This document shows, piece after piece, positions 4,258-20,871 of a stretch of DNA of 64,000 bases. The first letter of the stretch is position 1, and each line of letters begins with the position of its first letter. A program made the translations under genes and the position numbers. The DNA comes from Catellatospora bangladeshensis (GTDB taxonomy: Bacteria; Actinomycetota; Actinomycetes; Mycobacteriales; Micromonosporaceae). The stretch lies in contig NZ_BONF01000010.1 of assembly GCF_016862575.1 (NCBI RefSeq), positions 1 through 64,000 on the forward strand. The letters run 5' to 3'. The notes below the pieces were generated by a model, which had not been told where the DNA came from, did not search any database, and saw only the letters and a program-made list of their open reading frames with translations.

Positions 4258-5216
4258 GCCGCCACCTCCTGCCTGCTGCCCTGCTGCCGGTCGAGTTCGA
4301 GGAACACCTCGTCGAGGGTGGGCCGGCGCAGGTTGACCTCGGCCGGCTCGACGCCCTCGGCGGCCAGCGCCGCGCTGACCGCGACCAGGGCCTTCGTACG
4401 CTGCTTCACCGGCACGCTGATGCGCCGCTCGTCGGTGCGGGGCTCACCGTCGGCGTGCCGCCGCACCACCGGCAGCGCCGCCCGCGCCTGCGCCGGATCG
4501 TCGAAGACGAGGTCGATCCAGTCGTCGCCGACCGCCGCCTTCAGCTCGTCCGGCGTGCCCTCGCGGACCACCCGGCCGTGCCACAGCATGGCGATCCGGG
4601 TCGCGAGCCGGTCGGCCTCCTCCAGGTACTGCGTGGTGAGCAGGACGGTGGTGCCGCCCGCGACGAGTTCGCGTACGGCGGCCCACACCTCCTGCCGGGC
4701 CTGCGGGTCCAGGCCGGTGGTCGGCTCGTCGACGAACAGCACCTCCGGCGACACGATGAGGCTGGCGGCCAGGTCGAGCCGCCGCCGCATACCGCCGGAG
4801 TACTTGGCCACCGGCCGGTTTCCGGCCTCGACCAGGCCGAACCGCTCCAGCAGCTCGTCGGCGCGGGCCGCCGCGCGGGCCCGGCCGAGGTGGTTGAGCC
4901 GCCCGAACAGCACCAGGTTCTGCCGCCCGCTGAGGATCTCGTCGACGGCGGCGTACTGCCCGACGAGGCCGATCCGGCGGCGCACCTGCGCGCCGTCCGT
5001 GCTCACGTCGTGCCCGGCCACCACCGCCCGCCCGGCGTCCAGTCGCATCAGGGTGGACAGGATGCGGATGGCCGTGGTCTTGCCCGCCCCGTTCGGGCCC
5101 AGCAACCCCTGGATCGTCCCCCTGGGCACCTCCAGGTCGAATCCGCCGAGAGCCGGTTCTTGCGCTCCCGCGTAGGTCTTGCGTACTCCGGACGCCGCTA
5201 TTGCCAGTTCAGACAC
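4254..5216 (-). CDS. ABC transporter ATPase, DrrA-like
   Basis: A 320-residue ATPase with Walker A GPNGAGKTT, signature YSGGMRRRL and Walker B VLFVDEPTTGLD. The extra C-terminal domain of about 80 residues after the nucleotide-binding domain, ending with RRPTLDEVFLELD, is the mark of the daunorubicin-resistance DrrA subfamily. It is the first gene of a two-gene operon with the permease that follows by a four-base overlap. A palindrome-rich stretch at 5241-5266, 25-50 bases before the start, probably holds its operator. No regulator gene is adjacent. Confidence 0.92.
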   Translation of the reverse strand: MSELAIAASGVRKTYAGAQEPALGGFDLEVPRGTIQGLLGPNGAGKTTAIRILSTLMRLDAGRAVVAGHDVSTDGAQVRRRIGLVGQYAAVDEILSGRQNLVLFGRLNHLGRARAAARADELLERFGLVEAGNRPVAKYSGGMRRRLDLAASLIVSPEVLFVDEPTTGLDPQARQEVWAAVRELVAGGTTVLLTTQYLEEADRLATRIAMLWHGRVVREGTPDELKAAVGDDWIDLVFDDPAQARAALPVVRRHADGEPRTDERRISVPVKQRTKALVAVSAALAAEGVEPAEVNLRRPTLDEVFLELDRQQGSRQEVAA

Positions 5217-5240
5217 GTGCGGACGCCTCCCTTCGCTCGG

Positions 5241-5266
5241 CGTACACCGTACCGTACGTCGTACGC
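5241..5266 (-). promoter_or_regulatory. Operator-like palindrome upstream of the DrrAB-like operon
   Basis: CGTACGTCGTACG at 5253-5265 is a perfect odd palindrome, preceded by the related half-sites CGTAC and CCGTACCG. GTAC-rich inverted repeats at this distance from an efflux operon are typical of TetR-family sites; the regulator itself is not in the window. Confidence 0.45.
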
Positions 5267-5336
5267 CTGCGTCCAGCGAAGTTTCTCAGGGTCTGCTGGG
5301 CGAGCGGAATTCGCGCGGCGGGCGCAAGCTGAGCGC

Positions 5337-5882
5337 ATGGACATCGACGCCATGACGGCGCTCCTCCCCCTCGCCCCGCTCGCGGTGCACATGGTGCTGC
5401 GGCGGGTGCCCGAGGGCGAGGTGTGGATCCTCGAAAGGCGCGGCCGGTATCGCCGGTCGCTCGCGGCGGGCTGGCACCTGGTGGTGCCGCTGGTGGACCG
5501 GGTCAAGGCCGTGGTCGACCTCGCCGGGCAGATGCTGCTGTGGCCGCCGGTCGCGGCCTACGACACCCCGACCCCCACCGGAGACCTCTTCCCCGCCGGC
5601 GACGGCCGCACCGTCGAGGTGCGGCTGCGCGTCCTGTGGCGCGTGACCGACCCGGTCGTCGCCGCGTACCAACCCGACGGGCCCGCCAAGGCCATCGACG
5701 CCCTGGCCGAGGCGACACTGCGCCGCCTCATCGCCGACCTGCCCACCGAGACCGCCCTGTCCAGCCGCGGCGATCTCGACCGCGCGCTGTCCACCGCGCT
5801 GACCGACGGCGCCCACTGGGCCGAGGTCAGCAACGTACGCATCAGCGAGGTGCTGCCGCACCCGCAGCCGGTGCGCTCCTGA
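5337..5882 (+). CDS. SPFH (band 7)-domain protein
   Basis: A 181-residue protein with the opening of a band-7 domain: EGEVWILERRGRYRRSLAAGWHLVVPLVDRV resembles the stomatin signature in which the protein passes through a lipid-facing segment, followed by VEVRLRVLWRVTDPVVAAY and a region of alternating acidic and basic residues with VRISEVLPHP near the end. Stomatin-like proteins normally have a longer N-terminal membrane anchor and a coiled-coil tail; this one is short, with only a weak hydrophobic start (MTALLPLAPLAVHMVL). The ATG at 5337 is the first in frame; a second at 5352 is possible. Its last 41 bases overlap the end of the convergent membrane-protein gene. Confidence 0.7.
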   Translation: MDIDAMTALLPLAPLAVHMVLRRVPEGEVWILERRGRYRRSLAAGWHLVVPLVDRVKAVVDLAGQMLLWPPVAAYDTPTPTGDLFPAGDGRTVEVRLRVLWRVTDPVVAAYQPDGPAKAIDALAEATLRRLIADLPTETALSSRGDLDRALSTALTDGAHWAEVSNVRISEVLPHPQPVRS

Positions 5883-6735
5883 CCACACCGTCCCCGGGCG
5901 TCACCAGGTCGCGGCACAGCGGCACGTCCGACGTGGTGATGCCCGGCTTCACCAGCAGCGACAGCAACGGCCGGCTCCATACGCCGGTCTCGCGCTCGCT
6001 GCAGATGCGGCGCTGCGTGATCTGATCCGAGGTCAGCTGCCGCGGCCCGCCGCCGTCCCGGAACAGCACCGTCTCCAGGTCGTCCTCCTTGCCGAGCAGG
6101 TAGGCGACCCGGGTCCGGCCCTCGACGGTCACCGCGCTGGCGGGCAGCCACATGCCCTGCAGCAGGACGACGGCGGCGAGGGTGAGCCCGATCAGGGCGG
6201 TCAGCCCGTCGACCCACACCGTCGGCACGCGTCCGCCGAGCAGCGGGCTGGGCGGCCGGTTCGCCGCCCAGGCGGGCTGCGGCCACCGGCGGCCCACCGT
6301 CATCGCGGCCACCAGCAGCAGCACCACCACGACGAGCAGGACCACCAGGTAGAGCGGTGCGGTGACCACCCCGACCGCCGCGATCATGAGTGCCGCGGGC
6401 GGCGGCACGGACGACAGCGCGGTGGTCTGGGCGACGGCGCCCCGCATCGCGGCTCGCCGTTCGGTCAGAGCCAGGGCCGCCGCGAGGATGAGGATCAGCG
6501 GCAGGAAGGTGAGGTAGCTGCCGATGAGCAGCGCCTGCATGCTGGTGTGCTGCGCGAGCGCCTTCATCGTGGCGTCGTCGCCGTCGGCCAGCACGAACAG
6601 CCGTACCCCCGCGAGGATCGCCGGGAAGGCCGCCGACACCAGGCCCAGGTAGAGACCGGTCCGCTCCCCCACCGCGGCGGCCACCCCGGCCGCGGGACGA
6701 TCAGGCTCGAGCATCTGCTCCGTCACGCCCCACAT
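5842..6735 (-). CDS. Multi-pass membrane protein of unknown function
   Basis: A 297-residue protein with about six strongly hydrophobic stretches (for example LLIGSYLTFLPLILILAAALAL, LYLVVLLVVVVLLLVAAM and ALIGLTLAAVVLLQGMWL). After the last comes a C-terminal hydrophilic domain of about 90 residues containing VAYLLGKEDDLETVLFRDG and TQRRICSE, which may lie outside the membrane. I do not recognise the family. GTG at 6726 or ATG at 6711 are alternative starts. The tail overlaps the convergent SPFH gene. Confidence 0.7.
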   Translation of the reverse strand: MWGVTEQMLEPDRPAAGVAAAVGERTGLYLGLVSAAFPAILAGVRLFVLADGDDATMKALAQHTSMQALLIGSYLTFLPLILILAAALALTERRAAMRGAVAQTTALSSVPPPAALMIAAVGVVTAPLYLVVLLVVVVLLLVAAMTVGRRWPQPAWAANRPPSPLLGGRVPTVWVDGLTALIGLTLAAVVLLQGMWLPASAVTVEGRTRVAYLLGKEDDLETVLFRDGGGPRQLTSDQITQRRICSERETGVWSRPLLSLLVKPGITTSDVPLCRDLVTPGDGVVRSAPAAGAAAPR

Positions 6736-11554: not shown

Positions 11555-12373
11555 ATGATCCGCGTCGTCGCCGTCGACCTCGACGGCACCCTGATCCGCT
11601 CCGACGGCACCGTCTCCGGTCGCACCCGCGCCGCGCTCGCCCGTGCCACCGCCGCCGGAGCCCGGCTGGTGATCGTCACGGCCCGCCCGCCGCGCACCGC
11701 GCGGGCGCTGGCCCGGCGCGCGGACATCGGCGGTGTCGCGGTCTGCTCCAACGGCGCGATCGTCCACGACCTCGACGCGGACGAGACGGTGATCACCGGG
11801 CCGCTGCCGCTGGACCTGGCCGAGCGCACCGCACAGGTCATCACCGATGCGCTCGACGGCGTGTCGTTCGCGGTCGAGACCGGGCGGCGCGCGGTGGTGA
11901 GCCCCGGGCACGGGCATCACGCCACGCACGAAGACGCCCGGCACGAGGTCGAGACGCCCGAGCAGGTCTGGACGGAGGCGGAGAGCTGCGTCAAGCTGCT
12001 CGCCTGGTCGCCCGCGCCAGTCACCGTCGAGCTGCTGGAGCGGCTCCAGGAGCTGGTCCCGCAGGTGCGGATCACGTACTCGGGCGGGAACGGACTGCTG
12101 GAGATCAGTGCGGCCGAGGTATCCAAGGCGGACACGCTGGCGCGGCTCTGCGACGGCTGGGGCGTCGCCCCGGACGAGGTGATCGCGTTCGGGGACATGC
12201 CCAACGACCTGCCCGTTCTCGCGTGGGCGGGCACCGGCGTGGCCGTGGCCAACGCCCACCCGCAGGTGCTGGCCAGCGTGGACCGGGTCACCGCGAGCAA
12301 CGACGACGACGGTGTCGCGCTGGTGCTGGAGGAGCTGTTCCCCGCGACGGCCGATGTCGTACCGGGCGGTTAG
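11555..12373 (+). CDS. HAD-superfamily phosphatase, Cof type
   Basis: A 272-residue hydrolase with all HAD motifs: motif I VDLDGTL with nucleophile Asp8 and Asp10, motif II in LVIVTARPPRT, lysine motif in AAEVSKADTLA, and motif IV GDMPNDLPVLAWAG. A type IIB cap lies between motifs II and III. Such enzymes dephosphorylate small sugar phosphates, nucleotides or cofactors in the cytoplasm; the substrate is not predictable. The start ATG fits the motif I distance from the N-terminus. Confidence 0.9.
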   Translation: MIRVVAVDLDGTLIRSDGTVSGRTRAALARATAAGARLVIVTARPPRTARALARRADIGGVAVCSNGAIVHDLDADETVITGPLPLDLAERTAQVITDALDGVSFAVETGRRAVVSPGHGHHATHEDARHEVETPEQVWTEAESCVKLLAWSPAPVTVELLERLQELVPQVRITYSGGNGLLEISAAEVSKADTLARLCDGWGVAPDEVIAFGDMPNDLPVLAWAGTGVAVANAHPQVLASVDRVTASNDDDGVALVLEELFPATADVVPGG

Positions 12374-12412: not shown

Positions 12413-12733
12413 ATGTTTCGGCAGGGTGATGTGCTGGTCGTCCCGATCGCGCGGGAAGGGCTGCCGGAGGGCCTGATGGACGCGCCGCGCGACCGGCGCA
12501 ACCGGATGGTGCTGGCGCTGGGCGAGGCGACGGGCCACGCGCACGTGCTGACCGGCGAGCGGGTGTCGATGCTGTGCCCGCCCGACGAGCCCGGCCGCCT
12601 CTACCTCCTGATCGAGGGCTACGGCCGTCTGGTGCACGAGGAGCACGGCCCGATCGCGCTGGCGCCGGGCGCGTACAAGGTGGTCCGGCAGCGGGAGTAC
12701 TTCCCCGGTGCCATCCGCCCGGTCGCGGACTGA
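12413..12733 (+). CDS. Small conserved protein of unknown function
   Basis: A 106-residue soluble protein, MFRQGDVLVVPIAREGLPEG, with a strongly patterned centre (VLALGEATGHAHVLTGERVSM) and end (LVHEEHGPIALAPGAYKVVRQREYFPG). The His residues in GHAH and HEEHG suggest a metal or ligand site, an inference only. TGGAGG lies six bases before the ATG at 12413; the in-frame GTG at 12398 has no such site. The DUF6745 gene follows after eight bases, so the two probably act together. I cannot assign a function. Confidence 0.75.
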   Translation: MFRQGDVLVVPIAREGLPEGLMDAPRDRRNRMVLALGEATGHAHVLTGERVSMLCPPDEPGRLYLLIEGYGRLVHEEHGPIALAPGAYKVVRQREYFPGAIRPVAD

Positions 12734-12741
12734 GGCCGGGC

Positions 12742-13923
12742 ATGAGCGAGCAGACGATCTCCGGTACGGCGAGCGCCGCCCGGCGACACGGCGATGACGA
12801 CGTCAGGCTGGCCGAGCAGGGCGAGCGCTGGCTGGCCACCGGGCTGAGCTGCGAGCCCGCCGACCGCGCGGGTGCCGAAGCGGGGGTCCGGATCGCGTAC
12901 GCGCTGGCGGGCCTGCCCGCGCCGAAGCACATCCTGTGGCTGGGCTCGCCCGCCGCGGGCGCGCTCGGGGTGGCGATGCTGCGCACCGGCCAGCGCGGCG
13001 GCCGCCGTGACGAGCACATCCGGCGGGCGCTGGAGGCGCAGGGCGCCCGGCCCGGCGAGCTGGACCTCGGCCGCAGCGTACGGCCCCGGGTTCGCACCCG
13101 GCCGTGGGCGCAGGCACGGGCGGCGCTGATGACGAAGCTGGGCGGCACCGGCTTCGCCCGGCACTGGGCGGCCACCGCCCGCCGCCCCTGGCAGCAGCTG
13201 ACCGACCAGCTCGCCACCCCGCTGCGGACCAGGATCGACGCCGACCTCGCCGGGCGGCTGTCGGCCCGCGCCGGGCAGACCGAGCAGGTCGCCGAGCTGC
13301 CGCAGGCGGCGCGGGAGGCACTGCTCGACGCGATCGGCGGCCAGCACGACGCGGCCTGGCTGGCCGCCTTCGACAGCCACCCGGACGTGGACGGCCTGGC
13401 CCGGGTCGCCGGCAGCGCGGGCTGGTGGTGGGCGTTCGAGCACGTCGCCGTGCTCACCGAGCGGCCGGTCGCGGTGCACCGGGACAACCTGGGGCGGCTG
13501 CACCACGGCGACGGGCCGGCGCTGTCCTACCCGGACGGGTTCGGCCTGCACGTCTGGAGCGGCATGCCGATCACCGCAGAGGTCGCCGCCGAGCTGCCGC
13601 ACCTGACCGTGGAACGCATCCGCGCCGAGGGCAACGCCGAGATGCGCCGGGTGATGCTGGAGCACTTCGGCTTCGACCGCTACCTGCGCGAGTCCGGGGC
13701 GTCCAAGACGCAGTCCGATGAGTGCGGCACCCTGTGGCGGGTCACCCTGCCCGGCGACGAGCCGCTGGTCATGGTCGAGGTGCTGAACTCCAGCCCGGAG
13801 CCGGACGGGTCCTTCCGGACGTACTTCCTGCGCGTCCCGCCGACCATCCGCACCGCGCGGGCCGGGGTGGCGTGGACGTTCGACCTCACCGAGGAGGAGT
13901 ACGTCCCGCTGCAGCAGACCTGA
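12742..13923 (+). CDS. DUF6745-domain protein
   Basis: A 393-residue soluble protein. Its C-terminal half carries the hallmark of DUF6745 (VHRDNLGRLHHGDGPALSY followed by PDGFGLHVWSGMPI), a family I know only as uncharacterised. The N-terminal half is helical and rich in Ala, Arg and Glu with no motif I recognise; the middle has GWWWAFEHVAVLTERP. The end, CGTLWRVTLPGDEPLVMVEVLNSSPEPDGS, also matches the family's tail. It follows the small protein at 12413 by eight bases and its last 38 bases overlap the end of the convergent radical SAM gene. Confidence 0.8.
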   Translation: MSEQTISGTASAARRHGDDDVRLAEQGERWLATGLSCEPADRAGAEAGVRIAYALAGLPAPKHILWLGSPAAGALGVAMLRTGQRGGRRDEHIRRALEAQGARPGELDLGRSVRPRVRTRPWAQARAALMTKLGGTGFARHWAATARRPWQQLTDQLATPLRTRIDADLAGRLSARAGQTEQVAELPQAAREALLDAIGGQHDAAWLAAFDSHPDVDGLARVAGSAGWWWAFEHVAVLTERPVAVHRDNLGRLHHGDGPALSYPDGFGLHVWSGMPITAEVAAELPHLTVERIRAEGNAEMRRVMLEHFGFDRYLRESGASKTQSDECGTLWRVTLPGDEPLVMVEVLNSSPEPDGSFRTYFLRVPPTIRTARAGVAWTFDLTEEEYVPLQQT

Positions 13924-14800
13924 CCGGCTCACCCGGCACGCCCCAGGTCGGCGGCGGCCCGGCGGGGATCCGCTCGGGCACGCCGCCGGCGAACACCCGG
14001 TGCAGGTCCAGCCGCTTGAGGTGGACGTATCCGATGTGGCAGTCGCAGGTGGCGTTGGTGCACGGGCGGGGGCGCAGCGCGGCCCGGTAGCTGCCGTCGT
14101 AGAGGTTGCCGAGCGGGGCCGGGATTAAGTGGCAGCGGCGTACGGTGCCGTCGCCGAGCACGGACAGCGACGTCTCGCCCGCGCCGCAGTCGAACCCGGC
14201 CGAGTCGTGCGGGCGCACGCTGTACCCGAACAGCGGGTCGATCTCCGTCCACGCCGCCTCGGCGGCCGCGTCGTAGGTGTGCCCGTCGGCGGCGTTGACC
14301 CACAGGTACGTCGACTCCGGCAGCAGCTCGCGCATCGCCACCGCCTCGGCGTGGTGCTCGGGCAGCCCGACCATGCCGACGGAGTGCCTGACGCCGTACC
14401 CGCGCAGGGTGGCGCAGGCGGCCAGGAAGCGTTCCCGGCTGACCTGCCCGGGGTGGTAGGTGGCCCAGAGGGCGAGCCGGGCCGGATCGGCGTCGGCGAC
14501 CCAGCTCAGCCGCCCGCCCAGGTTGGTCTGGATGGCGACCCGTTCGACGTGGGGCAGCTGCGACAGCCGCACCAGCGCCTGCCGGTACCAGGACCGGGTC
14601 AGCCCTTCGCCCCACGGGGTGAACAGCACGGAGATCATGTCGCCGTCGGGGTTGGCGGCGACCCAGTCGGTGAACCTGGCCAGCGCCTCGCGGTCGGCGG
14701 TCAGCTGGGCCCGGCTGTCGCGCCGCTTCGCGAACGGGCAGTACGGGCAGTCGTAGTTGCAGCTCGCGAGGGGCCCGCGGTAGAGCAGCAGCAGGTTCAT
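13886..14800 (-). CDS. STM4011-family radical SAM protein
   Basis: A 304-residue iron-sulfur enzyme. The radical SAM cluster motif is CNYDCPYC with Cys14, Cys18 and Cys21. It ends with a second Cys-rich region (CGAGETSLSVLGDGTVRRC, then CTNATCDCHIGYVHLKRL) of the kind that binds auxiliary clusters in SPASM/twitch proteins. The sequence and the four upstream neighbours match the STM4011 family. Radical SAM enzymes cleave S-adenosylmethionine to start radical chemistry; the substrate of this family is not known to me. It is the last gene of the five-gene operon, coupled to the STM4012-like gene by a four-base ATGA overlap. The final 38 bases overlap the convergent DUF6745 gene. Confidence 0.9.
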   Translation of the reverse strand: MNLLLLYRGPLASCNYDCPYCPFAKRRDSRAQLTADREALARFTDWVAANPDGDMISVLFTPWGEGLTRSWYRQALVRLSQLPHVERVAIQTNLGGRLSWVADADPARLALWATYHPGQVSRERFLAACATLRGYGVRHSVGMVGLPEHHAEAVAMRELLPESTYLWVNAADGHTYDAAAEAAWTEIDPLFGYSVRPHDSAGFDCGAGETSLSVLGDGTVRRCHLIPAPLGNLYDGSYRAALRPRPCTNATCDCHIGYVHLKRLDLHRVFAGGVPERIPAGPPPTWGVPGEPVRSAAAGRTPPR

Positions 14801-16119
14801 CGCAGCACCGCCCGTGCCATGGCGTCGCGCACCGGCCCGGACACCAGCCAGGGCCCGATCGCGTCGCCGTGCGCGAGCCCCTCGTCGGTGAGCGCCAGCC
14901 GCCCGTCCGCCTCAGCCGCCCAGCCCCGGCCGGCCAGCTCGGCCAGGTGCGGGAAGTCCTGCTCCACCGTGCCGCCGAAGCGGTCGGCGTATCCGGCCAG
15001 GTCGACGCCCTCGGCGCGCAGCAGCGACTTGACCAGCCAGCGCAGCCGCCGCTCGGCCCCGTCGAGCGCGAAGCCGAACTCGGCGTACCCGAAGTCGGCG
15101 GCCGGGCGGCTGATGTAGTCGTCGATGATGGCGCGCACCTCGCGCACGCTCACCGCGTAGTCGAACGAGTAGTGCAGGTCCGCGGTGTACGAGCGGGCGC
15201 CGCAGCCGAGGCCGACCATGCCGTCGTCCTGGCAGCAGTAGTCGGCGCCGTCCGGGTCGGGCACGTCCGCGCGGCGGAACTGCCGCATGGACAGCTGCCG
15301 GTAGCCCGCCTCGCGGAGCAGGTCACGGCCCTGCCGGTAGAGGTCGAGCCGCTCGCGGTCCCAGTCCGGGTCGGGCGCGTCGCCGTGGCGGCGGCCGAGA
15401 CCGGTCAGCGGGCGCACGTACAGCGGGTAGAGGTAGACCTCCTCCGGAGACCAGGACAGAGCCTCGCGCAGCGAATACGCCCAGGTGTCGCGGGTCTGGC
15501 CGGGGATGCCGTAGATCAGGTCCAGGTTGCGTACCGCGAAGCCGCCGCCGGTGATCGCGGCCAGGGCGCGGTCGACCTCGGCGCGCCGCTGCGGCCGCCC
15601 GGCGGCATGCGCCTCGGCATCCAGGAAGCTCTGCACGCCCATGCTGACCCGGTGCGTGCCGTGCGCGGCGAGCACCGCCAGCCGGTCCGGGGTCGCGGTC
15701 GCGGGCGACGTCTCCACCGACAGCCCCGCTGCGCCCGCGTCCAGCCCGAGCACGCCCTTGGTGATCTCGAACAGCTCGGCCAGCTCGGCGGCGTCCAGGT
15801 AGGTCGGGGTGCCGCCGCCGATCGCGGCCCGCGCGTAGCGGACCGGGCCGAGCGCCGCTGCGACCTGCTCCGCCTGCACGCGAAGCTGGCGCAGGTACGC
15901 CGAGACCTGCTCGGCGGGCGGCGTGGCGCGGGTGAACAGGTTACAGAAGCCGCAGCGCATCTCGCAGAAGGGGATGTGCAGGTAGAGGAACAGCGCGTCG
16001 CGGTCCTGCCCGGCCCACACGTCGCGCAGCGCGGGGCGCGGGCGCAGCGCTCGGTACGCCGTCTTGTGCGGGTACGCGTACAGATAACCCTGGTACGGCG
16101 AGCCGTCGAGCACGTTCAC
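14797..16119 (-). CDS. STM4012-family radical SAM protein (HemN-like)
   Basis: A 440-residue enzyme resembling coproporphyrinogen dehydrogenase HemN but with a distinct family identity. It has the HemN-type cluster motif YLHIPFCEMRCGFCN (Cys52, Cys56, Cys59), the IGGGTPTYL glycine-rich SAM-binding segment, and the VSMGVQSF and DLIYGIPGQT segments shared with HemN. A winged-helix-like tail (LTDEGLAHGDAIGPWLV) follows. The context with STM4011-, STM4013-, STM4014- and STM4015-like genes identifies it as STM4012 rather than a heme enzyme. GTG at 16119 is chosen since it overlaps the previous stop (GTGA); GTG at 16122 or 16113 are possible. Confidence 0.88.
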   Translation of the reverse strand: MNVLDGSPYQGYLYAYPHKTAYRALRPRPALRDVWAGQDRDALFLYLHIPFCEMRCGFCNLFTRATPPAEQVSAYLRQLRVQAEQVAAALGPVRYARAAIGGGTPTYLDAAELAELFEITKGVLGLDAGAAGLSVETSPATATPDRLAVLAAHGTHRVSMGVQSFLDAEAHAAGRPQRRAEVDRALAAITGGGFAVRNLDLIYGIPGQTRDTWAYSLREALSWSPEEVYLYPLYVRPLTGLGRRHGDAPDPDWDRERLDLYRQGRDLLREAGYRQLSMRQFRRADVPDPDGADYCCQDDGMVGLGCGARSYTADLHYSFDYAVSVREVRAIIDDYISRPAADFGYAEFGFALDGAERRLRWLVKSLLRAEGVDLAGYADRFGGTVEQDFPHLAELAGRGWAAEADGRLALTDEGLAHGDAIGPWLVSGPVRDAMARAVLR

Positions 16120-16931
16120 CACTCCCCCGGCCGCAGCGTGAACTGCGTGTACGGCACCGTCCACACGACGTCGTGCCCGATGCGGTGCCCGTGGTGCCCG
16201 TCCTCGCCGTACGCGGTGCCGTGGTCGGCGCACATGATCACGAAGCACGGCCGCCCACGGGAGGTGAGCAGCGCGAACAGCCGCGGCAGCAGCGTGTCCA
16301 CGTAGCACAGCGCCGCCGCGTGGCTGTCCCGGCCGTCCTCGGCGGCGCCGGGCAGGTAGTGCCGGTTCGGCTGGTGCAGGGCGGACACGTTGAGGAAGGT
16401 GAACAGCGGCCGCTGCGGCGCCAGCCCGGCCGCACTGTCCCGCAGCTGGTCGAGCTGGTGGCGCAGCGAGTCCGGCTCGGTCACCCCGAACTCGGGCCGC
16501 CAGTGGTCCTCGGCGAACAGCCCCGGCAGCACGCTGCCCAGCGCCGAGCGCCGGTTGAAGAAGCCCACGCCGCCCAGGCACAGCGTGTGATACCCGGCCT
16601 CGGCCAGCCCGGTCACCAGATCCGGCGCATCGAACACGAACGTGCCCCCGGCCGTGGTCTCGCTGCCGGGGAACCGGGCCGCGAACAGCCGCTCGTGCCG
16701 CCCCGGCGTGACCGGCGTCGGCAGGAAGCCCGCGAAGAACGCATGGTGCGCGGCGTAGGTGAAGCTGGCCGGGGTGTGCCGCCGCTCCCAGCCGGTCTCC
16801 GGCAGCACCCGGGACAGGTGCGGGGTGCGGCCGGTCGCGGCCAGCTCCACGGCCACGTCGTAGCGCAGCGTGTCGAGGGTGACCAGCGCGAGGTCGTGCG
16901 TGCCGACCAGCGCCGCCATGTCCGTGCTCAT
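16116..16931 (-). CDS. STM4013/SEN3800-family hydrolase (alkaline-phosphatase fold)
   Basis: A 271-residue protein with two metal-site signatures of the sulfatase/phosphatase superfamily: an N-terminal LALVTLDTLRYDV, with the Asp and Thr expected to bind metal and act as nucleophile, and a C-terminal CADHGTAYGEDGHHGHRIGHD, rich in metal-binding His and Asp. Sulfatases need a Cys or Ser modified to formylglycine; no such motif is seen, so phosphatase, phosphodiesterase or transferase chemistry is likelier. No signal peptide, so it should act in the cytoplasm. ATG at 16931 overlaps the stop of the STM4014-like gene by four bases. Confidence 0.87.
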   Translation of the reverse strand: MSTDMAALVGTHDLALVTLDTLRYDVAVELAATGRTPHLSRVLPETGWERRHTPASFTYAAHHAFFAGFLPTPVTPGRHERLFAARFPGSETTAGGTFVFDAPDLVTGLAEAGYHTLCLGGVGFFNRRSALGSVLPGLFAEDHWRPEFGVTEPDSLRHQLDQLRDSAAGLAPQRPLFTFLNVSALHQPNRHYLPGAAEDGRDSHAAALCYVDTLLPRLFALLTSRGRPCFVIMCADHGTAYGEDGHHGHRIGHDVVWTVPYTQFTLRPGEW

Positions 16932-17998
16932 GCCGCCCGCACCCGCTCGCGCGCCAGCAGGGCGGCGATCTCGGCGTCGTACGTGTCGCGGCCGTCGACG
17001 AGCAGGCCTGGCAGCAGGTCGCCAAACGCGTTGACCTCGGCGACCGCGTGCGAGCGCCAGCCCGCGGCGAACATCAGGTCCACGCCGGTGTGCAGGCTGC
17101 CCGGGAAGCAGGCGGCGACGGCCCGGCAGGTGTCCAGCCCGGCGGCATAGTGCGGCCCGGCGGCGGCACGCAGCGCGCACAGGTCGCCGCGTACGCCGCC
17201 GAGGTGCAGGTTCGTCATCGGGGAGCGGCTGCCGCGCACCACCACATGCGACGGCTGCCCGGCGACCGTCACCACGCGCAGGTCGACGACGCGGCCGTCC
17301 AGCCCGGCCTTGGGCAGCCAGCGCTGCACGTGCAGGCCGTCGGGCGCCAGCCCGTCCACGATCGCGGCGACGTCGCGCTCGTCGCGGTAGTGGCGCACCC
17401 GCAGCGAGTTGAACAGGCGTCCCCGGTCCAGCTCGACCGAGGTGGTGGCGAGGATTCGGACGCCGCCCAGCTGCAGCGCGATCACGCCGGAGGCGGACGA
17501 GCCGTGCCGGGTCTTGACGAACACCCGCCGCCAGCCCGCCTCGTCCAGCCACGAGCGCAGCTGCGCCCAGTTCGCGGGCGGGCCGGGCAGCGCGGCGGGC
17601 ACGGGCACACCCGCGGCGAGCAACCGGTCGTGGCAGGCGTTCTTGTCGAACATGACCAGGATCTCGGCGGGGTCCGCGAGCAGCCGCGCGCCCTGGCCGG
17701 CGGCGGTGGCGGCGAGCCGGTGCAGGGCCCGCGCGAAGCCCGCGTGCCAGGCGGCTCCACCGACGATCTCGCCTTGCTCGGCCGGGACGGCGGCACCACG
17801 CAGCAACCGGTCCACCTCGGCGTCCTCGCCGGGGGACTCGACTCGGACCAGCGTGCCCGCCCGCAGCCGCAGCGGCGCGCCGGAGGCCACGTCGTGCCAG
17901 GCGAGCACGTCGGGCTCGGGCAGCCCGGCCCGCACCGCCGCCGCGGCGAACAGGGTGACGCGGCGGCTGCCGGGGTTGCCGACGACCGTGAGGTGCAT
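16928..17998 (-). CDS. STM4014-family protein (ATP-grasp-like)
   Basis: A 356-residue protein with ATP-grasp features: MFDKNACHDRLLAAGVPVP is the usual Lys-binding segment of RimK-type ligases, FVKTRHGSSASGVIAL the nucleotide-gripping loop, VDLRVVTVAGQPSHVVVRGS the middle strands, and GVDLMFAAGWRSHAVAEVNAFG the metal-binding Asp and Glu-x-Asn end. ATP-grasp enzymes join a carboxylate to an amine or thiol using ATP, so a ligase step in the pathway is a sound inference. It starts directly after the STM4015-like stop codon (TAG then ATG) and overlaps the next gene by four bases. Confidence 0.87.
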   Translation of the reverse strand: MHLTVVGNPGSRRVTLFAAAAVRAGLPEPDVLAWHDVASGAPLRLRAGTLVRVESPGEDAEVDRLLRGAAVPAEQGEIVGGAAWHAGFARALHRLAATAAGQGARLLADPAEILVMFDKNACHDRLLAAGVPVPAALPGPPANWAQLRSWLDEAGWRRVFVKTRHGSSASGVIALQLGGVRILATTSVELDRGRLFNSLRVRHYRDERDVAAIVDGLAPDGLHVQRWLPKAGLDGRVVDLRVVTVAGQPSHVVVRGSRSPMTNLHLGGVRGDLCALRAAAGPHYAAGLDTCRAVAACFPGSLHTGVDLMFAAGWRSHAVAEVNAFGDLLPGLLVDGRDTYDAEIAALLARERVRAA

Positions 17999-18922
17999 CT
18001 ACTCGGCGACCGCGATGTAGCGCTCGTCGCGGCGCGAGCGGGACGGCTCGGAGAGGTCCAGCTCCACCCCCGCCTCGGCGAGCTCGGCGGTCAGCCGGGC
18101 CTGCACCGGGTCGCTGATGAAGTGGTGGTGCAGGTCGAGGCGGTGCAGGTGGGTCAGCGGCTGGCCGGCCAGCAGCGCGGCGGCGCCCTCGTCGGCGAGC
18201 ATGCCCAGCGACAGGTCCAGCCTGCGCAGCCGGGCCACCACAGGGGCCCCGGCCAGAGCGGCGGCGACCTGGTCGGCGATCTCGGAGTCGCGCAGGCCGA
18301 GCGAGGTCAGCGCGGGCAGCCGGGTGCCGTTCAGGATCGGCGCGAGGTCGTCGACGTCGGCGTCGCCGCCGTAGTTGCCGGTGCCCAGCCACAGCTCCAG
18401 GTGGGTCAGCGCGGGCAGGTCGCACTCGCCGACGGCACGGACCACCTCGGCGGGCAGACCGCCGGACTCGATGGTGAACTCGCGCAGGTGCTCGTGGCGC
18501 AGCGGCTTGAGGCCCAGCCCGCTCGCGCCGCGCACGGTCAGCGTCTCCAGCCGGGGCAGCGCCTCCAGCAGCGGGGTGATGTCGGTGTGCACGATCCAGG
18601 AGATCTCGCACTCCTCGTACGTCATCTCCCCCAGGAACAGCGCCTTGAGGCTGGTGAAGCGCGGCAGCAGCTCGGCGAGCAGGCCGATCGGCGGGGCGCT
18701 CTCATAGGCCCCGCCCCAGTTGCCGATGACGATCGCCTCGACCTTGTCGGCCCACTCCTCGGCGGCCAGGGCCGTCAGCCGCTCGCGGAACTCACCGCTG
18801 TCGTCGTAGTCCGTGTCCTCCAGGCGCCAGGCCGTGCCGGCCCGCTTCGCCTTCCCGAGATCGTTCGGGTAGTCCGCGACGGGCCTGCCGGCGAACGTGG
18901 TGATGTGCGAGCCGATCGTCAT
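17999..18922 (-). CDS. STM4015-family leucine-rich-repeat protein
   Basis: A 307-residue protein built of leucine-rich repeats (LPALTHLELWLG, RLPALTSLGLRDSEI, VARLRRLDLSLGMLA, LTHLHRLDLHHHFIS) after an N-terminal segment MTIGSHITTFAGRPVADY. In Salmonella the same family sits beside the STM4011-4014 genes. The repeats suggest a binding or scaffold role, perhaps holding a peptide or protein substrate for the enzymes downstream; that is inference. ATG at 18922 has GGAGG eight bases upstream. It is the first gene of the operon, only 65 bases after the end of the alpha-galactosidase gene. Confidence 0.88.
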   Translation of the reverse strand: MTIGSHITTFAGRPVADYPNDLGKAKRAGTAWRLEDTDYDDSGEFRERLTALAAEEWADKVEAIVIGNWGGAYESAPPIGLLAELLPRFTSLKALFLGEMTYEECEISWIVHTDITPLLEALPRLETLTVRGASGLGLKPLRHEHLREFTIESGGLPAEVVRAVGECDLPALTHLELWLGTGNYGGDADVDDLAPILNGTRLPALTSLGLRDSEIADQVAAALAGAPVVARLRRLDLSLGMLADEGAAALLAGQPLTHLHRLDLHHHFISDPVQARLTAELAEAGVELDLSEPSRSRRDERYIAVAE

Positions 18923-18986: not shown

Positions 18987-20822
18987 CTACACCCGGGTAC
19001 GAAGCCATTGCTGGTTGGTGCCGCTGCCGCAGGTCCACTGCACGGCCTGGGCCCCGTCGGTCGTGGCGGCGTTGTTCACGTCCAGGCATTTGTTGCTGTG
19101 CCTCGCGACGAGCTGCATGTATCCACCGCCGACATCCTGAATGCGCCACTGCTGGTTGGTGCCCGTGCCGCAGGTCCACTGCACGACGCGCACGCCGTCG
19201 GCGGTGGCTCCCGCGCCGCCGTACACGTCGAGGCACTTGCCGCTGTTGACGCTGACCACGTTGTAGTAGCCGCCGCCCGCGTCGCGGAACCGCCACCGCT
19301 GGTTGTTCTGCCCGTTGGCGGCCCACTGCACGACGTTCGCGCCGTCGGTCGTGGCGGCGTTGTACACGTCCAGCAGCTTGCCGCTGTGCCGCGCGGTCAG
19401 CGTGTACGCGGCGGGCACCGGCGTCGTCGTCTGCGGCGCGAGCCGGTAGAGCCCGGCGCCGTGGGCGGGCAGCGAGCGGGTGAGGGTGCCCGAGACCGTG
19501 CCGAGTCCCGCGCCGGACCACAGGTCGGTCACGACGGCCGAGCCGATGCCGAGGTCGGCCAGGTTCAGCGACACGTTCGCCGTGGCGCTCTCCCGGTTGA
19601 ACAGCGCGACATACCGGTGGTCACTGCCGGGCACGTCGGCGACCCACACCTGCCGGGTGCCCCCGATGAGCTGGCGGTTGTTGGTGCTGTTCTGGTCGAC
19701 GGCGAGCACCGCCGCGTTGGTCATCAGTGCCAGCTCGGAAGCGCGGTTCTCGACCAGGTTGCCGCCCCACATCAGCGGCGCGCGGTTGATCGCCCACAGC
19801 GTCATCATGGTGCGCTGCTCGTCGGCGGTGAGCCCGGAGTAGCGCGGCGAGCCGACCGGACCGTACTTGGACAGCCGCCCGATCGGGATCATGTCCGGGT
19901 CGGGCCACGCCCCGGTCGCCCGGTGCGGGGCCCAGTCGCGCAGCGGGTCGAACAGCGCGTCGAGCGCGCCCCAGTTGTCCCAGAGGTCGTTGACGATCCG
20001 CCACATGTGGGCGTTGGCCCGCACGTGCGTACCGGAGGACAGCGGCGTCGGGCCGGGCGACAGGCTCAGCACCATCGGCCGCCCGCTGCGCTGGATGGCC
20101 AGCCGGTATCCGTCGACCTCCGCCTGCCGGTAGGTCGGCGCGGCGATGTCGTCGACCTTGACGAAGTCGACGCCCCAGCTCGCCAGCAGCTGGAACACGG
20201 AGTCCAGGTAGGCCTGCGCGCAGCTGTTGGACATGTTCAAGCCCCACATGAGGTTGAGCCAGGCCGCCGTGGTGCTGTTGTTGATCTGGTTGGCACGGCA
20301 GCTCGTGCCGAGGATGGGCACGTTGTCGGCCACCGCCTGGCGCGGGATGCCGCGCATGAGGTGTACGCCGAACTTCAGGCCCTGCGCGTGCACGTAGTCG
20401 GCGAGCGGCTTGAACCCGTTGGTGCCGGCCGCCGAGGGGAAGCGCGTGGTGTCGGGCAGCAGCCGGCCGTTGGCGTCCATGCGCAGCCGGGGCGACAGGT
20501 TCGCGTCCTGGTTCGGGCTGTTGTTGTGCCGGCCGGGGAAGTACCAGGCCCAGTCGACGACGATGTACTGCCAGCCGTGCTGGCGCAGGTTGTCGCGCAT
20601 GTAGTCGGCGTTGGCCTTGACGTCGGCCTCGGTGACGCTCCAGTTGAACGCGTCGTAGCTGTTCCAGCCCAGCGGCGGAGTGGGTGCCACACCGTTGTCC
20701 CATGCCTCGGCCCGCTGCTGCGGGCTGACCACGAGCCCGGCCGCGAGCAGCAGGGTCAGCGCCGCCAGCAGCCCGGTGACCAGCCGCCGCCCTGCTCTGG
20801 GGCGTACCAGGACATGGCTCAT
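18987..20822 (-). CDS. Secreted GH27 alpha-galactosidase with ricin-type lectin tail
   Basis: A 611-residue exported enzyme. A signal peptide with RPRAGRR and a long hydrophobic core ends near AEAW. The catalytic barrel starts TPPLGWNSYDAFNW, the GH27 opening, and includes VDFVKVDDIAAP with nucleophile Asp224 and AWPDPDMIPIGRL with the acid/base Asp. After a beta domain comes a ricin-B lectin (CBM13) trefoil with three QxW-type copies (NNQRWRF, NQQWRI, NQQWLR). GH27 enzymes remove alpha-galactosyl residues from galactomannan or oligosaccharides. GGAGGG lies five bases before the ATG. A LacI-type operator at 20872-20889 lies just upstream, suggesting repression in the absence of sugar. The gene is divergent from the chitinase. 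Confidence 0.92.
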   Translation of the reverse strand: MSHVLVRPRAGRRLVTGLLAALTLLLAAGLVVSPQQRAEAWDNGVAPTPPLGWNSYDAFNWSVTEADVKANADYMRDNLRQHGWQYIVVDWAWYFPGRHNNSPNQDANLSPRLRMDANGRLLPDTTRFPSAAGTNGFKPLADYVHAQGLKFGVHLMRGIPRQAVADNVPILGTSCRANQINNSTTAAWLNLMWGLNMSNSCAQAYLDSVFQLLASWGVDFVKVDDIAAPTYRQAEVDGYRLAIQRSGRPMVLSLSPGPTPLSSGTHVRANAHMWRIVNDLWDNWGALDALFDPLRDWAPHRATGAWPDPDMIPIGRLSKYGPVGSPRYSGLTADEQRTMMTLWAINRAPLMWGGNLVENRASELALMTNAAVLAVDQNSTNNRQLIGGTRQVWVADVPGSDHRYVALFNRESATANVSLNLADLGIGSAVVTDLWSGAGLGTVSGTLTRSLPAHGAGLYRLAPQTTTPVPAAYTLTARHSGKLLDVYNAATTDGANVVQWAANGQNNQRWRFRDAGGGYYNVVSVNSGKCLDVYGGAGATADGVRVVQWTCGTGTNQQWRIQDVGGGYMQLVARHSNKCLDVNNAATTDGAQAVQWTCGSGTNQQWLRTRV

Positions 20823-20871
20823 CAGACCCTCCGCACACGGCTCGGCTCGCGCTCGACCATCGGTCGCCATC

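Follow-up and report, generated by a model that had tools for sequence, protein, structure and literature searches.

The STM4011-STM4015 cassette of Catellatospora bangladeshensis: a conserved C-terminal glutamate beside a RimK/LysX-type ligase suggests a repeat-protein carrier

Background

Among the closest described relatives of the locus studied here are the LysW/LysX and ArgW/ArgX systems, in which a RimK-like ATP-grasp ligase adjoins a protein with a conserved glutamate as its last residue. The same arrangement is found in the STM4011-STM4015 cassette, a five-gene operon in a stretch of 64,000 nucleotides of Catellatospora bangladeshensis DNA (contig NZ_BONF01000010.1, positions 1 to 64,000; hereafter the window), which is the subject of this work. 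The partners of the LysW pathway are LysZ, LysY, LysJ and LysK, whereas those found here are radical S-adenosylmethionine (SAM) enzymes and a hydrolase. LysW carries an EDWGE motif and zinc-binding cysteines (PMC10433800), and the GSWGR motif of LysX reads EDWGE. The glutamate-ended protein of the cassette, STM4015, is in contrast a leucine-rich-repeat protein of about 300 amino acids without conserved cysteine, whose tail follows R-Y-x-A-V-x-E and not EDWGE.

The ligase also links the cassette to the RimK/S6 (RpsF) pair, from which it differs in that the proposed substrate, the leucine-rich-repeat protein, is encoded beside the ligase and radical SAM enzymes are present. In the pearlin pathways (TglA/TmoA), according to the available part of PMC9303977, an amino acid is loaded on the C-terminus of a carrier peptide and altered there, once by a radical SAM enzyme. 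The proposal made below likewise involves C-terminal amino-acid loading of a genetically encoded carrier followed by alteration. The pearlin loader, however, is a transfer-RNA-dependent PEARL and its carrier a short peptide, whereas STM4015 has 307 residues, and no match to a PEARL-type family was obtained among the five cassette proteins with NCBIfam and Pfam.

The cassette is widespread and its families are named, yet searching the literature with the gene and family names and with the domain combination, in a collection whose coverage left out most subscription journals, returned no function for it, in agreement with an earlier note on this DNA that knew of no proven product. In the parts of the texts available, the two papers found to name STM4013 or STM4015 list them in tables.

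Results and discussion

Gene structure and family assignment

The operon and the tail on which the argument turns are as follows.

13886..14800, minus strand: STM4011, radical SAM protein of 304 amino acids, start ATG (NF038073, E 5.1e-116; alignment; C-terminal match to SkfB)
14797..16119, minus strand: STM4012, HemN/HemW-like radical SAM protein of 440 amino acids, start GTG (NF006067, E 3.8e-182; PF04055 and PF06969; alignment)
16116..16931, minus strand: STM4013, alkaline-phosphatase-superfamily hydrolase of 271 amino acids, start ATG (NF038075, E 2.1e-122; PF00884, E 1.7e-8; alignment)
16928..17998, minus strand: STM4014, ATP-grasp protein of the LysX/RimK type, 356 amino acids, start ATG, proposed ligase (NF038074, E 4.5e-127; PDB profile search, hhalign and model)
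17999..18922, minus strand: STM4015, leucine-rich-repeat protein of 307 amino acids, start ATG, proposed carrier (NF038076, E 1.5e-109; solved relative 2ra8, E 6.7e-95)
18002..18022, minus strand: codons of the C-terminal heptapeptide RYIAVAE of STM4015, followed by the stop codon at 17999-18001 (tail statistics)

All five genes that the earlier note had placed at 13886..18922 are thus present on the minus strand. STM4015 and STM4014 abut with a gap of 0, and at the remaining three junctions the genes overlap by 4 bases. Each gene is a single open frame, with a guanine-plus-cytosine fraction of 0.94-0.98 at the third codon position; start codons in the tables of open reading frames (ORFs) were picked by rule and may be off. 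Since all five proteins exceed the curated NCBIfam cut-offs, with E values from 1.5e-109 to 3.8e-182, the family assignment is not due to chance. The window proteins are direct members of these families, whose names carry no function; the tail, the ligase type and the extra gene pair described below are additions to them. The gene order makes it likely that the five genes act in one pathway, and the wording of the earlier note, that they must do so, was too strong for evidence of this kind. The genome to which the window belongs has one STM4011 match and one STM4015 match.

The C-terminal tail of STM4015

The last residue is glutamate in 126 of the 131 closed ORFs that match the STM4015 family, and the five others are partial: in four the match ends at or before profile position 260 (of 303), and the fifth is a fragment of 190 amino acids. 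Every row of the STM4015 alignment (24 of 24) ends in glutamate as well. As a comparison set we took the other coding-like ORFs of 80 loci, where a terminal glutamate was found in 48 of 1817. These loci, all from actinomycetes, are the best 80 of a genome scan with the STM4011 alignment, in which at least 536 stretches (stretches, not species) among the 590 matches listed encode an STM4011 relative.

The usual tail is R-[YF]-x-A-V-[SAG]-E. Counted from the end in the 126 sequences, glutamate occupies position -1 in 126, valine position -3 in 108, alanine position -4 in 101, tyrosine or phenylalanine position -6 in 122 and arginine position -7 in 112, so that no tail residue apart from the terminal glutamate is invariant. 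Because some of the 126 are near-duplicates of one another (those of two Salmonella plasmids and of many Streptomyces), we also give the number of identity groups into which the sequences fall, namely 67, 40 and 18 at 70, 60 and 50% identity, respectively. The 21 positions before the heptapeptide are rich in aspartate and glutamate and weakly conserved, partly because their length varies. Distant tails differ and yet end in glutamate: YMNAMYTE in Salmonella, YMHPMFTE in E. coli, WYYPMITE in Bacteroides and WRYPSLTE in Paenibacillus. The solved relative from Bacteroides fragilis (PDB 2ra8) has the same kind of tail, with the glutamate at residue 354 of 362; the residues after it are probably a tag. 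No cysteine column of the alignment is invariant or nearly so.

Some STM4015 relatives are unusual in architecture or setting. At three loci, matching ORFs stand in tandem (six in L084, five in L076 and three in L103), several of those in L076 and one in L084 being partial, and every copy that extends to the C-terminus has retained the final glutamate. A Calothrix plasmid (L141:1999-3288) encodes an orphan relative whose N-terminus is extended and whose tail reads RYCSVAE, and no other cassette gene was found in the 10.3 kb examined. The Bacteroides protein (L015:6513-7586; also PDB 2ra8) has an N-terminal WGR domain (PF05406, E 6.1e-18), which the available part of PMC4275035 describes as predicted to bind nucleic acid.

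STM4014 and its linkage to STM4015

PDB profile search, hhalign (E 3.7e-5 against RimK) and a structure model with fold comparison all place STM4014 nearest to LysX/ArgX and RimK. The closest entries to the modelled fold are of ArgX, RimK and LysX, and the eight best fold matches are enzymes that act on the terminal glutamate of a protein; the margin over glutathione synthetase is small (0.5-1.7 Z), and some LysX/ArgX entries rank below glutathione synthetase. As modelled, STM4014 has the ATP-grasp fold of the RimK/LysX kind. By analogy with these enzymes we infer both the reaction and its site: STM4014 would ligate an amino compound to the C-terminal glutamate of a protein. Taken together, the tail and the ligase type favour one of the substrates that the earlier note had considered, the repeat protein itself, and specifically its C-terminal tail; its other options, a small molecule or something encoded elsewhere, are less favoured.

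The two genes can keep together even where the cassette is broken up. STM4014 is missing from two loci (L067 and L073) although their contigs run on. It was found in all six genomes searched, those of L067 and L073 and four others, and in the former two the displaced gene lies directly behind another STM4015 copy, which likewise ends in glutamate; a DUF6745 gene, of the family described below, is nearby in one of them.

Based on the tail, the ligase and this linkage, we propose, with a confidence that stops just short of even, that STM4015 functions as a carrier, that STM4014 loads it at the terminal glutamate, and that the tail so loaded is what the radical SAM enzymes work on. The carrier would comprise a leucine-rich-repeat body, an acidic and probably flexible linker, and the C-terminal tail ending in glutamate. 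STM4014 would activate a carboxylate of this glutamate and attach an amino compound, probably an amino acid. STM4011 and STM4012 would then modify either the tail or the group tethered to it. STM4013 would remove a phosphate-type group, helped in some lineages by a HAD phosphatase. The ligase type and the glutamate-ended tail predict that STM4015 is shifted in mass at its last residue.

Several observations weigh against this proposal. The EDWGE motif and zinc-binding cysteines known from LysW are absent from STM4015 in the 24 aligned rows, and the GSWGR motif of LysX is absent from the STM4014 of the window. Moreover, in locus L096 (Streptomyces sp. NRRL S-31; also L151), STM4014 lies directly before STM4011, and no STM4015, STM4013 or STM4012 was found within the 10 kb upstream of STM4011, to which the search was confined. 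This locus is either a reduced or a rearranged cassette, and with it STM4014 and STM4015 can be said to stand side by side usually, not always. The same locus raised the standing of an explanation in which the terminal glutamate is a signal by which the cassette enzymes, a protease or a partner recognise STM4015, while STM4014 joins two small molecules and STM4015 serves as a scaffold. We consider this fairly unlikely, for the eight best fold matches of STM4014 act on just such a glutamate, the glutamate is retained while the adjoining tail positions drift, and the displaced STM4014 is still beside STM4015 in two genomes.

A terminal glutamate at the end of an acidic tail also brings Pup to mind, a modifier that is joined through its terminal glutamate to lysines by a ligase of glutamine-synthetase type. 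If STM4015 were conjugated to lysines of other proteins in this way, its multiple paralogues would be multiple modifiers. This is very improbable, as STM4014 is of the ATP-grasp and not the glutamine-synthetase type and the radical SAM enzymes would be left without a role; besides, we know of no precedent for a protein modifier that is a leucine-rich-repeat protein of 300 residues.

The radical SAM enzymes and the hydrolase

The two radical SAM proteins, the alkaline-phosphatase-fold hydrolase and the ATP-grasp protein named in the earlier note all have invariant motifs in the alignments. The CxxxCxxC motif of radical SAM enzymes is invariant in STM4011 (8 rows) and STM4012 (16 rows). In the C-terminal part of STM4011, C205, C223, C247, C252 and C254 are invariant too (8 rows), and the only match of the STM4011 profile to PDB at E of 1 or less falls there, to SkfB (6efn, E 1.1e-4). 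SkfB we take to be a radical SAM maturase in which a cysteine domain of the twitch/SPASM kind lies at the C-terminus; the likeness is limited to profile positions 191-264, and, as a difference, no precursor peptide was identified. Pfam SPASM matched the Bacteroides STM4011 weakly and below the cut-off (E 0.0028) and gave no match in the STM4011 of the window.

All 16 aligned STM4013 rows keep D20, R23, D25, T58, H62, H186, D212, D236-H237, H249 and H253, a pattern of the alkaline-phosphatase superfamily with threonine at the nucleophile position. This threonine stands in F-T-[YWF] in 16 of 16 rows, so no formylglycine maturase is needed. The Pfam Sulfatase match of STM4013 (E 1.7e-8) and the SPASM-like extra cysteines of STM4011 would otherwise suit a role of STM4011 as a mere maturase of STM4013, like the anaerobic sulfatase-maturating enzymes. 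Formylglycine sulfatases carry the motif C/S-x-P-x-R; there is none at the threonine of STM4013, hence no residue convertible to formylglycine, and we give this explanation hardly any credence.

No release enzyme was recognised among the NCBIfam and Pfam matches of the five proteins, which is in keeping with a modified tail that is itself the product. STM4014 would extend STM4015 at its end by at least one amino acid, much as RimK modifies S6, and the tail would be crosslinked or altered by the radical SAM enzymes. The result would be a permanently modified regulatory or binding protein, from which nothing is released. The tail and ligase evidence fits this explanation as it fits a carrier; the WGR domain of the Bacteroides protein and the leucine-rich-repeat body suggest a binding protein, and the tandem copies (six matching ORFs in L084, one of them a fragment) point the same way. 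We nevertheless hold it to be unlikely. With only the terminal glutamate invariant, a radical SAM target in the tail would most likely be the added group, and the hydrolase, together with the HAD phosphatase of some lineages, points to small-molecule chemistry.

An anti-phage defence system was also considered and rejected, there being no clear match to a PADLOC defence model among the five proteins: three had none and two had weak matches alone (E 4.2e-4 and 0.055).

Distribution of the cassette

The earlier note would have been refuted if the five genes were not conserved together; they are. The loci were chosen by STM4011, and several of the 80 are cut by contig ends. Of the full-length ones (at least 20.5 kb), 60 in number, 60 have STM4015, 59 STM4014, and 60 each STM4013, STM4012 and STM4011. 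In all 80 the corresponding numbers are 74, 75, 78, 79 and 80. Among the matches listed, the closest loci are from Catellatospora, with STM4011 85-86% identical.

The cassette is present in Actinomycetota, Deinococcota, Bacillota, Alphaproteobacteria and Gammaproteobacteria, its breadth beyond the actinomycete loci being taken from plasmid records and one E. coli chromosome. Thirteen plasmid records matched and 12 were examined, 10 of them found through STM4011 and two (one Embleya and Nonomuraea) through STM4015, while a second Embleya was left out. Annotated records from Salmonella, Paenibacillus, Deinococcus, Methylobacterium and Streptomyces contain the whole cassette. In one Bacteroides finegoldii plasmid (L015) it is damaged, STM4013 being a fragment and STM4012 not found. 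In an even sample of the phylum, STM4011 was over the cut-off in 6 of 396 genomes, including that of the window, and 154 of 5426 complete E. coli genomes have an STM4011 relative. In the E. coli chromosome examined (n = 1), a single operon comprises the five genes together with a HAD gene.

Genes accompanying the cassette

Three neighbours of the operon were absent from the earlier account, the last two of which recur beside the cassette. They are on the plus strand, pointing towards the operon, and the phosphatase gene precedes the pair.

11555..12373, plus strand: Cof-type HAD-IIB phosphatase of 272 amino acids (TIGR00099, over the cut-off)
12413..12733, plus strand: protein of 106 amino acids that we label SP106, a recurrent DUF6745 partner with conserved histidines (PHROG 27831, E 1e-15)
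12742..13923, plus strand: DUF6745 protein of 393 amino acids (PF20530, E 1.7e-96), whose gene, at its 3' end, shares 38 bases with the 3' end of STM4011

The earlier note had advised looking for a constant extra gene. Counted directly, SP106 and DUF6745 each occur in 47 of the 60 full-length loci; the constancy does not extend to the Salmonella, E. coli, Paenibacillus, Bacteroides and Embleya loci, where the pair was not found beside the cassette. It adjoins the cassette in 7 of the 12 plasmid-collection loci. When the ORFs of the 80 loci were clustered, SP106 and DUF6745 were what recurred beyond the cassette at high count and in at least three lineages, in a clustering that merges the SP106 family with 114 unlabelled ORFs. 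Two other unlabelled clusters look, by their position, like antisense shadows of cassette genes, and the next recurrent family, ABC-transporter-like, was left out as too rare (10 loci, three lineages). The placement of the pair varies. In Streptomyces it lies upstream and is divergent, in several Micromonosporaceae and in Deinococcus it is downstream and convergent, in Paractinoplanes it is downstream and points the same way as the cassette, and in Methylobacterium it is upstream.

Within the 396-genome sample, DUF6745 was over the cut-off in 10 genomes, 4 of which also have STM4011, always within about 7 kb, and 6 of which do not. The pair occurs with no cassette nearby in plasmids of Deinococcus ficus and Skermanella and in the Microcystis phage Ma-LMM01 (L118). 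In the phage it consists of gp175 (4968-5339) and gp174 (5363-6499; PF20530, E 1.3e-14), flanked by DNA-replication-type genes, and no STM401x gene is annotated in the stretch examined. In two Deinococcus plasmids, VWA-domain proteins (L022:1180-3198 and L116:9363-11222) are encoded close to the pair or the cassette. SP106 has no Pfam or NCBIfam match; in its alignment, histidines are kept in TGHxH- and HEEH-like stretches, which suggests a small beta protein with a metal site. DUF6745 was not found in the literature searched.

The HAD phosphatase lies beside the cassette in only 3 of the 60 full-length loci (L024-L026) and is for that reason regarded as an accessory. In Salmonella and E. coli its gene follows STM4011 as the sixth and last gene of the operon, and in the Bacteroides finegoldii plasmid a Cof-type HAD phosphatase is fused to STM4011 (L015:8965-10530).

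On the other side, 64 bases before STM4015, a gene on the same strand (18987-20870, minus) encodes what by eye is an alpha-galactosidase-like protein that is secreted and carries ricin-type repeats; its transcription may possibly read through into the cassette.

Conclusions

The cassette is widespread, the literature searched gave no function for it, and DUF6745 and SP106, families that are likewise uncharacterised, are now tied to it. Whether all of this amounts to a new class of carrier-protein biosynthesis is on the doubtful side, although we think it possible; in such a class a leucine-rich-repeat protein would be an amide-linked carrier through its C-terminal glutamate, with loading of the RimK/LysX type, radical SAM chemistry, and SP106 and DUF6745 as partner or user of the product. 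The value of the mass shift on STM4015 could reveal the substrate. If the proposal is true, carrier-bound amino acid biosynthesis would extend to repeat proteins and to radical SAM chemistry.

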